Shown in pieces: positions 9,220-40,699 of a DNA stretch of 64,000 bases. The stretch spans positions 1 through 64,000 of the forward strand of contig JAHDOI010000065.1 of NCBI GenBank assembly GCA_018434945.1. Reading direction: 5' to 3'. Within the stretch, counting starts at the first letter, position 1. Each line of letters starts with the position of its first letter. The stretch is from Selenomonadales bacterium (lineage in GTDB: Bacteria > Bacillota > Negativicutes > Sporomusales > UBA7701). The translations under genes were made by a program, and so were the position numbers. The notes beneath the pieces were generated by a model. It was given only the letters and a program-made list of their open reading frames with translations, did no database searches and was not told the DNA's origin.

Positions 9220-9256
9220 ATGTAGAAAACTTCCCGAAATGCGAGGAGGGGATAAG

Positions 9257-9694
9257 GTGCTTGTAGGTATCGGCAGCGATCACGGCGGTTACCGCCTGAA
9301 GGAAGAAATCAAGCAGTATCTGACGGAGAAGGGGATTGAGTTCCGCGATTTCGGCACCCATTCCACCGATTCCGTCGATTACCCCGACATTTCCCGCGCG
9401 GTGGCCGAAGCGGTGGCCGGCGCGAAGTGTGACCGGGGCATTATTATATGTGGGACAGGTATCGGCGTATGCATCGCCGCAAACAAGGTTAAGGGCATCA
9501 GGGCGGCGTTGTGTCACGACACTTTTTCGGCCCAGATGTCGCGGGAACACAACAACGCCAACATCCTGACGATGGGCGAGCGGGTAATCGGCTGCGGCCT
9601 GGCCCGGGCGATCGTCGAGAAGTGGCTGGCGACCGAGTTCGCCGGCGGGCGGCATGCCAAGCGGGTGTGCAAGATCGCCGACCTCGAGGTCTAG
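9257..9694 (+). CDS. rpiB: Ribose-5-phosphate isomerase B
   Basis: 145 residues. It interconverts ribose 5-phosphate and ribulose 5-phosphate in the pentose phosphate pathway. GIGSDHGGYRLKEEI at the N-terminus, DSVDYPD, then CGTGIGVCIAANKVKGIRAA with the catalytic Cys, and HNNANILTMGERV are all RpiB hallmarks. The GTG at 9257 follows GGAGGGG at a suitable distance; the ATG at 9239 lies ahead of that site and is unlikely. It is the second gene of the ywlE block. Confidence 0.95.
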   Translation: MLVGIGSDHGGYRLKEEIKQYLTEKGIEFRDFGTHSTDSVDYPDISRAVAEAVAGAKCDRGIIICGTGIGVCIAANKVKGIRAALCHDTFSAQMSREHNNANILTMGERVIGCGLARAIVEKWLATEFAGGRHAKRVCKIADLEV

Positions 9695-9707
9695 AGACAA
9701 TACTATG

Positions 9708-9848
9708 GCGATTGAGGCTAAGGGCCCGTCTGCGTTGCACCCGCTGCGGGGTAGGCCGCAGTTCTAAGCGCTAAAGCACTAAGAACTTGCGCTCTTAGTC
9801 CTGCGCATGTTCGGTCCGTCTAGCATCTAGGCCCTTTTCCTCAATCGC
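9708..9848. repeat. Palindromic intergenic element, copy 1
   Basis: 141 bp with perfect 10-bp outer arms (GCGATTGAGG at 9708-9717, CCTCAATCGC at 9839-9848) and a second paired block (AAGGGCC 9720-9726 with GGCCCTT 9830-9836). The inside holds shorter inverted repeats. Read in the opposite direction, copy 2 at 15783-15908 shares several core blocks, but its outer arms have a different sequence that is again self-complementary. It contains no open frame of note. It lies between rpiB and the ywlG homologue. Confidence 0.7.
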
Positions 9849-9893
9849 TACGCAACTTTAGGGCGATTAGCCCTTGCTCAGGGGGTTTCCGGG

Positions 9894-15742: not shown

Positions 15743-15772
15743 AAAAGGCGCTTCCCGGCGGAAGCGCCTTTT
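15743..15772 (+). terminator. Rho-independent terminator
   Basis: AAAAGGCGCTTCC / GGAAGCGCCTTTT stem with a four-base loop, right after the dCMP deaminase stop. Confidence 0.9.
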
Positions 15773-15782
15773 ATGAAATGCC

Positions 15783-15908
15783 GGAAAGGGTTTAGAAGGC
15801 TCCAGATGCAAGACGCACCGGAAGAGCGCGCCGCGACGCGTACTTGGGTCGTACGCTAGCAAGCGCTCTGAGGAGCAACGCTGCAGATGGACCTTAAAAA
15901 CCCTTTCC
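15783..15908. repeat. Palindromic intergenic element, copy 2
   Basis: 126 bp with perfect 11-bp outer arms (GGAAAGGGTTT at 15783-15793, AAACCCTTTCC at 15898-15908), a partly paired second block and an internal GCGTAC/GTACGC hairpin. Read on the minus strand, the blocks CTGC-GTTGC-CC, GCGCTCTT and GTCT-GCATCT-G--CCTT recur in copy 1 at 9708-9848, while the outer arms do not. It ends exactly at the stop codon of the minus-strand beta-lactamase-fold gene. Confidence 0.7.
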
Positions 15909-16670
15909 CTATTTACGCCGTAAAGCGTTGTAAGCTTTCGCCGCCGTCCTGGCGATATAATCGCTCGCATACGCCTCGGGGCGGTCGGTAAGGGTGTAGA
16001 CGCTGATAAGAATCTGGTCGCGGCCGTCGTCGACGATGCCCACATCGCAGAGGAGGTTGTCGAGGGCGCCGACTTTGTGCATAACCGGGGTCTCCATTAA
16101 TCGGGGGATCTCATCGCGGAAGATGGTGTTGGCGAGCTTATATTTCAGTTCGGAGGATTTTTGCCTGCCGAGGTAGCGGTCGCGGTAGATGTTCTCGAAG
16201 ACCAGGGCCATCTCATAGGGCGTGGTGACGCTGTGGTAGTTGTAGCGCTTGTAGGCATCCTCGCTATGTACCTGAGTTTTTTTCAGGCGCAGGTCGCGCG
16301 TCACCTTTCTGAGGGCGTCGGGGCGGAGGGCATCGATCTCGGCGAGCATCGCGCGATATGAGTCGTTGCCGCTGACGACGATCATATCGTCGACGTTATC
16401 ATCGTACAGATCTTTCTTTGCCGGGCTGGCTGCGGGATAGAGGTACTTGTAGAGCGCCATCGCGACCACGAGCTTGGCGGTCGAGGCGGCGGGGAAAACG
16501 GTGTCCTGATTAAAGGAAAGAGCCTTGCCGGTTTTGAGGTTCTTGGCGTAGACACCGACCCGGCCGTCGAATTTCTTGGCGTCGCCGACGATTTCCTTGT
16601 AGGAATTGGCCGAGGCGACGGCGGCAACAAAGAGGAGAGCGGCTAGGAGAAGAGCGACTTTTCTGAGCAA
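15909..16670 (-). CDS. Beta-lactamase-fold serine hydrolase (class A-like)
   Basis: 253 residues from a TTG at 16670, placed by AGAGGTGG upstream; the longer frame has no site. Signal peptide residues 1-21. Active-site elements of the class A beta-lactamase/PBP fold: S63-T-A-K66 (SxxK), an SGN triad in VVSGNDSYRAML, and HKVGALDN in place of the usual KTG box. This class of secreted proteins includes true beta-lactamases and catalytically different relatives; the KVG box and the long helical insert make resistance uncertain. The promoter contains a TetR-like operator shared with tolC. Confidence 0.82.
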   Translation of the reverse strand: MLRKVALLLAALLFVAAVASANSYKEIVGDAKKFDGRVGVYAKNLKTGKALSFNQDTVFPAASTAKLVVAMALYKYLYPAASPAKKDLYDDNVDDMIVVSGNDSYRAMLAEIDALRPDALRKVTRDLRLKKTQVHSEDAYKRYNYHSVTTPYEMALVFENIYRDRYLGRQKSSELKYKLANTIFRDEIPRLMETPVMHKVGALDNLLCDVGIVDDGRDQILISVYTLTDRPEAYASDYIARTAAKAYNALRRK

Positions 16671-16702
16671 TCCTACCACCTCTTGTCTGCGGGTTTGGTT
16701 CA

Positions 16703-16731
16703 ATTATAACCGACGCTGACTGGTCAGTCCA
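16703..16731 (-). promoter_or_regulatory. Promoter of the beta-lactamase-fold gene with TetR-like operator
   Basis: On the minus strand: TGGACT (16726-16731), 17-base spacer, TATAAT (16703-16708). The palindrome GACTGACCAGTCAG (16716-16729) lies mainly in the spacer, a position that blocks RNA polymerase when bound. It differs by one base from the matching 14 bases of the operator at the tolC promoter. Confidence 0.65.
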
Positions 16732-39061: not shown

Positions 39062-39814
39062 ATGATAAGGGGGATTTATGTCGCCGGCTCAGGGATGATG
39101 ACCGAGGCGACGAGGACCGACGTCATCGCCAACAACCTCGCCAACGCGAGCACGGCGGGCTACCGCAAAGATATCGCCGTCGGCAAGGACTTCCGCAACA
39201 TGCTCATCCAGCGCATCAACGACGGGCCGAACCGCCCGGTCATCGGCAGCATGGGGGTCGGCTCGGTTATCGACGAAGTCGCCACTATCCACACCCAGGG
39301 CAGCATGAGGCAAACCGGCAACAAGTACGATCTGGCTATCGAGGGCCGGGGCTTTTTCGCGGTGGAAACGCCCGCCGGAGTCCGCTACACCCGCAACGGC
39401 AGCTTCACCCGCAGCGCTCAGGGCGAGCTTGTAACCCAGGACGGGTACCGGGTTCTCGGCCAGGGCGGGGCTATCCAGCTCGGCGACCCCGAAAGCAAGG
39501 TCGATATCGTCGAAGACGGCCGGATAATGGTGGACGACGCGGAAGCCGACACGCTGAGAATTGTGGACTTCGCTGACGAAAAACAGCTTGTCAAAGAGGG
39601 CGCCACGCTGTTCGCCGCCGGGCCAGGCCAGCAGGAAGAGCCGGTCGAGGGCATCATGGTACGCGACGGCTACCTCGAACTTTCCAACGTCAACGTGGTG
39701 GCCGAGATGGTCAACCTCATCACCGGCTACCGGGCCTACGAGATTAACAGCAAAGCCGCGCAGGCCCACGACTCGCTGCTTGACAAAGCCGTCAATGATG
39801 TAGGAAGAGTATAA
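39062..39814 (+). CDS. flgF: Flagellar rod protein, FlgF/FlhO type
   Basis: 250 residues. N-terminal rod signature GMMTEATRTDVIANNLANASTAGYRKD and C-terminal signature YLELSNVNVVAEMVNLITGYRAYEINSKAAQAHDS. It forms the proximal rod of the flagellar basal body. AGGAGGTG precedes ATG 39062. The same gene pair follows mbl in Bacillus (flhO-flhP). Confidence 0.94.
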   Translation: MIRGIYVAGSGMMTEATRTDVIANNLANASTAGYRKDIAVGKDFRNMLIQRINDGPNRPVIGSMGVGSVIDEVATIHTQGSMRQTGNKYDLAIEGRGFFAVETPAGVRYTRNGSFTRSAQGELVTQDGYRVLGQGGAIQLGDPESKVDIVEDGRIMVDDAEADTLRIVDFADEKQLVKEGATLFAAGPGQQEEPVEGIMVRDGYLELSNVNVVAEMVNLITGYRAYEINSKAAQAHDSLLDKAVNDVGRV

Positions 39815-39910: not shown

Positions 39911-40699
39911 ATGATGCGCGCGTTATGGACGGCCGGCACGGGCATGGTAGCCCAGCAGGCCAATATTGACGTTATTTCCAACAACCTGGCGAACGTCAAT
40001 ACCACCGGCTTTAAGAAAAGCCGCTCCGATTTCCAGGATCTGATGTACCAGACTGCCCGCCAGGCAGGGGCGACGACCGGTCCCGACACCCAATTGCCCA
40101 CAGGCATCCAGATCGGTCACGGCGTCCGCCAGGTGGCGACGCAGAAAATCTACACAATGGGCAATCTCCAGAACACCGGCAATCAGCTCGATGTCGCCAT
40201 CGAGGGCGACGGCTTCTTCAGGATAACAATGCCTGACGGAACACTCAATTACACCCGGGACGGCGCATTCAAAAAAGACAGTGCCGGACGGATAGTCACA
40301 TCCGAAGGTTATCCGCTCGAACCGCTGATCACCATCCCCGAGGGTACCACCGAGATCACGATTTCTTCCGACGGCCGCGTGACGGCCACCATCCCCACCC
40401 AGACCAATCCGCAGGATCTTGGCCAGATCCAGCTCGCCCGCTTCGTCAACCCGGCCGGCCTGGAGAGCGTCGGCCGCAACCTGCTCAAGGAGACGGCCGC
40501 TTCCGGGGCGCCCGTCGAAGCCACTCCTGGCGCGGACGGAGCCGGCACGCTTGTCCAGAAATACGTGGAAATGTCCAACGTCCAGGTCGTGGAAGAGATG
40601 GTCAACATGATCGTCGCCGAGCGGGCGTATCAGATGAACTCCAAAGCGGTCACAACCAGCGACTCGATGCTCGAAATCGCCGCCAACCTCAAACGATAG
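39911..40699 (+). CDS. flgG: Flagellar distal rod protein FlgG
   Basis: 262 residues. GMVAQQANIDVISNNLANVNTTGFKKSRSDFQDLMYQ at the N-terminus is the classic FlgG signature, and YVEMSNVQVVEEMVNMIVAERAYQMNSKAV the C-terminal one. It builds the distal rod that passes through the P and L rings. The ATG pair at 39911/39914 follows GGGAGG. Directly before flgA, the order seen in Gram-negative operons. Confidence 0.96.
   Translation: MMRALWTAGTGMVAQQANIDVISNNLANVNTTGFKKSRSDFQDLMYQTARQAGATTGPDTQLPTGIQIGHGVRQVATQKIYTMGNLQNTGNQLDVAIEGDGFFRITMPDGTLNYTRDGAFKKDSAGRIVTSEGYPLEPLITIPEGTTEITISSDGRVTATIPTQTNPQDLGQIQLARFVNPAGLESVGRNLLKETAASGAPVEATPGADGAGTLVQKYVEMSNVQVVEEMVNMIVAERAYQMNSKAVTTSDSMLEIAANLKR

Follow-up and report, generated by a model that had tools for sequence, protein, structure and literature searches.

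A high-copy family of palindromic elements behind genes of Sporomusa-related bacteria, probably mobile and resembling both REPs and MITEs

Two palindromes of opposite orientation occur in the window, by which is meant the whole 64,000-nt stretch that was analysed (positions 1 to 64,000 of contig JAHDOI010000065.1, Selenomonadales bacterium, GenBank assembly GCA_018434945.1), and direct reading of the sequence places both where an earlier note had put them (Table 1). The first follows an rpiB-like gene and the second an open reading frame whose product, by inspection, appears to be serine-hydrolase/beta-lactamase-like. As single-stranded DNA both fold better than shuffled sequences (z -3.5 for copy 1 and -4.2 for copy 2), and in neither is there a T run behind the outer arms, so that the GC stem plus T run of an intrinsic terminator is not found at the two copies. 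A covariance model built from 20 copies of the window's own genome has exactly two matches in the window, copy 1 and copy 2, which are thus members of one family; copy 1 scores 27.2 bits, and the far larger score of copy 2 is high by construction, copy 2 being among the 20 model sequences. Copy 1 is a diverged member: it has an inserted module of ~58 bp and has lost part of the interior that its orthologue L091, in the relative G004, keeps in full. Elsewhere in the window a direct repeat of 125 nt (39671-39795 and 40562-40686, 70% identity, spacing 891) is probably a duplicated coding domain.

Table 1. Positions of the two palindromic elements, their parts and adjoining signals in the window
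Feature	Position	Strand	Basis
Copy 1, full palindrome, on the strand of the upstream gene	9708..9848	+	Sequence; model match 9700-9857 (plus), E 3e-6
Copy 1, left outer arm GCGATTGAGG	9708..9717	+	Sequence and fold; same in orthologue L091
Copy 1, right outer arm CCTCAATCGC	9839..9848	+	Sequence
Copy 1, inner stem AAGGGCC (partner GGCCCTT, 9830-9836)	9720..9726	+	Sequence and fold
Copy 1, inner stem, right strand GGCCCTT	9830..9836	+	Sequence and fold
Inserted hairpin module B (57-58 bp) inside copy 1	9737..9794	+	Genome has about 33 relatives of it
Stop codon TAG of rpiB-like gene (9239-9694), 13 nt upstream of copy 1	9692..9694	+	Comparison of the orthologous site, G001-G005
Copy 2, canonical, carrying no module	15783..15908	-	Model match 15775-15915 (minus), 138.7 bits
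Copy 2, left outer arm, sense GGAAAGGGTTT, abutting the stop codon	15898..15908	-	Sequence and fold
Copy 2, right outer arm, sense AAACCCTTTCC	15783..15793	-	Sequence and fold
Stop codon TAG of ORF 15909-16703, upstream of copy 2	15909..15911	-	Sequence
Bidirectional Rho-independent-type terminator just past copy 2	15743..15774	.	Sequence

The expectation that many copies would be found in the genome was borne out. BLAST of copy 2 against its own genome gave 195 first-look candidates and 40 near full-length relatives, a number that counts copy 2 itself; the rest are 86-94% identical. BLAST of copy 1 gave about 33 relatives that have its middle in common, and all 115 of the candidates scored with the covariance model matched it, so that the genome holds at least 115 copies. 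By the same model four congeners carry at least 97-115 copies each and most other genera of the order 4-99, and no copies were found by this scoring in two families of the order. Of 150 relatives sampled at ranks from genus to class, 49 carry the family, and only 5 of 397 other genomes of the phylum, evenly drawn, gave a match, and that weakly; the family's range extends across Sporomusa's order and into part of its class. Nine loci came from a scan of named genomes, the named hosts being Sporomusa malonica, S. silvacetica and S. acidovorans, in addition to Selenomonadales and Sporomusaceae assemblies; a Deltaproteobacteria locus from that scan had no model match and was left out of the count. 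In one relative within the order (G018) four copies with identical scores lie at an exact spacing of 25,748 bp (C1:22903, 48651, 74399 and 100147), which seems to reflect either a 25.7-kb segment in tandem repeat or a misassembly. The earlier note knew of no named family that fitted, and none was found here: Rfam gave no match in the window at the gathering score and none at the elements with a relaxed threshold, the scans yielding nothing beyond a T-box with no relation to the elements, a TwoAYGGAY match and chance matches below threshold, and no description was found in the open-access literature, most subscription papers being outside reach. The family is apparently undescribed so far.

Each copy is one long imperfect hairpin of about 125-200 bp, made up of a conserved core and a variable, self-complementary outer stem. 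Canonical elements resembling copy 2 are about 130 bp and others are made longer by hairpin modules, the interiors being mosaics of nested smaller hairpins at fixed positions. The module held by copy 1, module B, is placed after CATCTGCNNCG in nearly all copies that have it, copy 1 included. Module B also occurs elsewhere (L042, L043, L053, L056), within different hairpins or surrounded by what looks like unique sequence, and may be mobile on its own. Many copies with diverse arms have an element-like CCGGCA outside the right arm. At many orthologous sites in close relatives the element is missing, inverted or reduced to its arms, and our reading is that the family decays by interior deletion and occasionally stands in inverted orientation at one and the same site. 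The L007 site has a canonical element in this genome (G000) and a different palindromic element, CGGTTGGGGAGAAACGAG...CGACGTTTATCGCCAACCGG, in two congeners, at L123 (G004) and L125 (G003); this other element represents a second family with the same layout. At the L011 site relatives (G001-G003) have two genes overlapping at ATGAGTGA, and in both G000 and G004 an element, oriented oppositely in the two, parts these genes; the element was apparently inserted independently in the two genomes, and in G000 it seems that a new start codon serves the downstream gene.

The copies are placed behind genes in a strongly oriented manner. A gene was called to the left of 159 copies; 135 of them are codirectional with it and 24 opposite (p 6e-20), the calls being mechanical (reading frames weighted by third-position GC), which means that single cases may err and the trend does not. 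The stop codon is usually 0-12 nt away, lying no further than 12 nt off in 88 of the 135 codirectional cases, and of 71 convergent genes on the right side just 11 are equally close; some copies even hold the stop inside the element (GTTGATAA, CGATAA, CCTAA). In E. coli, REPs lying up to 15 nt from a stop codon are reported, in work cited in PMC12306157, to stall ribosomes and to reduce translation of the gene upstream, and by analogy the copies are likely to act as a strong hairpin just behind the stop codon. Such strict sense-strand placement behind stop codons would also suit a structured cis-acting RNA, that is a 3'-UTR hairpin selected as mRNA for translation termination or 3'-end stability and undergoing compensatory changes.

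The arms themselves bear on that explanation. The two arm pairs on their own were rejected as evidence, as the window holds eight perfect 10-bp arm pairs around a 90-150 bp loop against 1-15 per shuffle (20 shuffles in which 3-base blocks were permuted); with pairs in the window at chance level the test had to come from other copies. There the claim that arms change sequence yet stay paired held up well, own-arm pairing being far above that of swapped arms across the family. Summed over 33 canonical copies of this genome, the pairing score of own arms was 853, and the maximum in 2000 permutations was 661. For the 91 copies in the main register (the fixed-register set comprises 124 distinct arm pairs), 721 of 910 outer-arm pairs were Watson-Crick, compared to a mean of 429 and a maximum of 475 when arms were shuffled between copies (2000 permutations), and the inner stem likewise varies with its pairing kept. 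The compensatory changes for which the earlier note had proposed to search aligned copies were found both across copies and at orthologous sites, where double changes include T-A to A-T (L037/L081), G-C to A-T (L047/L279) and T-A to C-G (L010/L155), and a block of four adjacent pairs has changed between the close orthologues L010 and L151. The covariation of the arms is real. At orthologous sites there are 94 one-sided changes by which a pair is broken or restored and 21 double changes that keep it, and the pairing constraint is therefore soft rather than strong.

RNA folds tolerate G.U pairs and do not tolerate A.C and, since each element has an orientation, a G.T mismatch on the sense strand is distinguishable from an A.C one. 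The counts were 16 G.T versus 25 A.C in the outer arms and 7 versus 11 in the inner stem, or 23 versus 36 when pooled (binomial p 0.12). Since G.T does not exceed A.C, there is no indication of selection on an RNA fold, and covariation with G.U tolerated over A.C was found neither in the outer arms nor in the inner stem. The cis-acting RNA, for all that the strong arm covariation and the well-folding stems are in its favour, is thus an unlikely explanation: the mismatch counts are the opposite of what RNA selection would give, the orthologous sites of close relatives are often empty, inverted or arms-only, and copy number and insertions at terminators favour mobility. Pairing seems instead to be kept at the level of DNA, either with the folded DNA in use or through templated correction between arms, which would give the same pattern as selection. 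Of the proposal that the palindrome is a structure under selection there accordingly stands the co-change of the arms, while the G.T excess is absent and most orthologous single-site differences are one-sided. It is about equally improbable that the palindrome is purely mutational, with template switching copying one arm onto the other (quasipalindrome correction) and the pairing functionless. Mismatches without strand asymmetry and the four-pair block change in L010/L151 would agree with such a process, but the block change is equally explicable by interior exchange with another copy, and both the placement of the elements and the duplication of terminators described below are left unexplained.

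An alternative offered in the earlier note, that host-like arms are acquired at insertion, finds no support in the arms themselves, which evolve in place at orthologous sites. Host derivation of the left arm was hinted at by L021, L001 and the rpiB site, whose 'empty' relatives keep left-arm-like sequence, but deletion remnants explain this equally well and the left arm of L021 fits the element's own consensus, so the idea was not adopted. It nonetheless came close to the truth for one subfamily, in which the insertion is bracketed by two host terminator hairpins. About 28 copies of this terminator type occur in the genus; they end in CAGACTGTCGATAAAG and have an inner and an outer copy of that motif on the other side, and in the manner of a MITE they possess terminal inverted repeats, CAGNYTGTNGAYAAAG (CAGACTGTCGATAAAG and outer CAGCTTGTAGACAAAG). 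In 22 of the approximately 28, 12 of which are in this genome, one Rho-independent terminator hairpin is repeated on both flanks, and the duplication takes in the hairpin as a whole, mostly 20-35 bp and differing from site to site; with flanks swapped between loci as a control there were 0 matches in 101. Empty orthologous sites (L006, L012, L015) have a single terminator, so that target-site duplication with empty sites, as is typical of MITEs, is a property of the terminator subfamily only. In G002 the orthologue of the terminator that lies by copy 2 in the window has received an insertion of this subfamily, with the hairpin duplicated (L134), and terminator duplication recurs in G001 (L280), in a second genus of the family (L065, L083, L200) and in a different family (L066). 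No duplication was found in the other subfamilies except at L175 (22 bp, not a clear hairpin). Judged from sequence, these comparisons show the terminator subfamily to be a true insertion at Rho-independent terminators. Two candidate parents of the subfamily were rejected, L166 being a solo end beside an ordinary terminator and L357 two separate elements 4 kb apart. It is conceivable, if doubtful, that transposition here recognises hairpins by shape and not by sequence, any self-complementary ends being accepted and any terminator hairpin serving as target, with cuts at both hairpin bases that would duplicate the whole hairpin and preserve termination.

Attempts to find an enzyme that mobilises the elements gave little. 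Scans with the end patterns of the family, in which part of the matches were read, revealed no autonomous partner or transposase bearing the family's ends, the loci read being only elements, remnants or chance 16-mers; the partner or mover may have been lost or may lie in unassembled gaps. The Y1/RAYT domain PF01797 is present in G001, G016 and G019, is reduced to a fragment of 21 residues in this genome, and was not found in G002, G003, G005 and G012, the first three of which are rich in copies, and reverse transcriptase was not found in four (G001, G003, G004, G005) of six genomes searched. RAYT and reverse transcriptase were rejected as movers, as their distribution does not fit. Group IIC introns insert just behind terminator hairpins in a fixed orientation. 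Unlike them, the family is without ribozyme or intron-encoded protein, in addition to the missing reverse transcriptases. The least probable explanation, a classical REP/BIME family moved by a resident RAYT (Y1) transposase, is largely refuted, as the element is not a 20-40 bp hairpin, the RAYT is a mere fragment here and missing from relatives rich in copies, and Y1 enzymes are not known to make 22-30 bp target duplications. What resemblance there is to GTAG and CGTC REPs and to BIMEs (PMC3733652, PMC2817692, PMC12306157) lies in high copy number, palindromic build, intergenic position, the abutting or providing of stops and alternative complementary stems; for GTAG REPs PMC3733652 describes placement at stop codons, provision of stops and alternative complementary stem residues, and in the text consulted it names no member of this phylum as the source of a GTAG or CGTC family. 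Unlike REPs, which are 20-40 bp hairpins with a GTAG or CGTC tag and a resident RAYT, the family has modular hairpins of about 125-200 bp with no tag in the arm consensus, a strong sense orientation, no G.T excess in its stems and a subfamily that duplicates terminators. The likeness to bacterial MITEs, including the pneumococcal BOX and RUP (PMC3049150, PMC10969869), consists of a non-autonomous nature, enrichment downstream of genes, modularity, insertion of element into element and, in the terminator subfamily, terminal inverted repeats and target duplication; it ends at the choice of a Rho-independent terminator as target, the duplication of a whole 20-35 bp hairpin, the covarying outer stems and the failure to find a partner insertion sequence. 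Elements of the IS1549/IS1634 type also have target duplications that are variable and unusually long, with direct repeats of 8 to 514 bp (PMC2266710), whereas duplication length here tracks the hairpin, the comparison being one of duplication pattern alone. Integron attC sites (IntI recombination, cassette arrays) are reminiscent only in being folded sites with bulges.

With neither the short tagged hairpin nor the intact resident RAYT of REPs, and with no MITE partner found, the family belongs firmly to neither class and works like both. The explanation preferred here, to which we would assign a probability of about 0.6, is a high-copy, non-autonomous, REP/MITE-like family of mobile palindromic elements of Sporomusa-related bacteria. 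For their spread the elements would rely on an enzyme provided in trans, one recognising 3' ends or terminators, and exchange between copies may also contribute. Arm pairing would be kept at the DNA level, in that a folded strand or cruciform could be the substrate of the enzyme, and/or template switching between arms during replication might repair one arm from the other. The strong hairpin behind the reading frame would be a by-product; in the better-studied E. coli REPs such a hairpin lowers translation.

With more than 100 copies per genome in several genera, and arms whose sequence varies while their pairing does not, the family constitutes a natural data set in which RNA selection, DNA structure and templated mutation become testable as keepers of palindrome pairing. 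By duplicating the terminator at insertion, a mobile element can settle among densely packed genes and leave transcription termination intact; this mode of insertion points to a putative enzyme that may recognise hairpins. Given the proximity of the copies to stop codons, translation termination or the 3' ends of many genes per genome may be altered.
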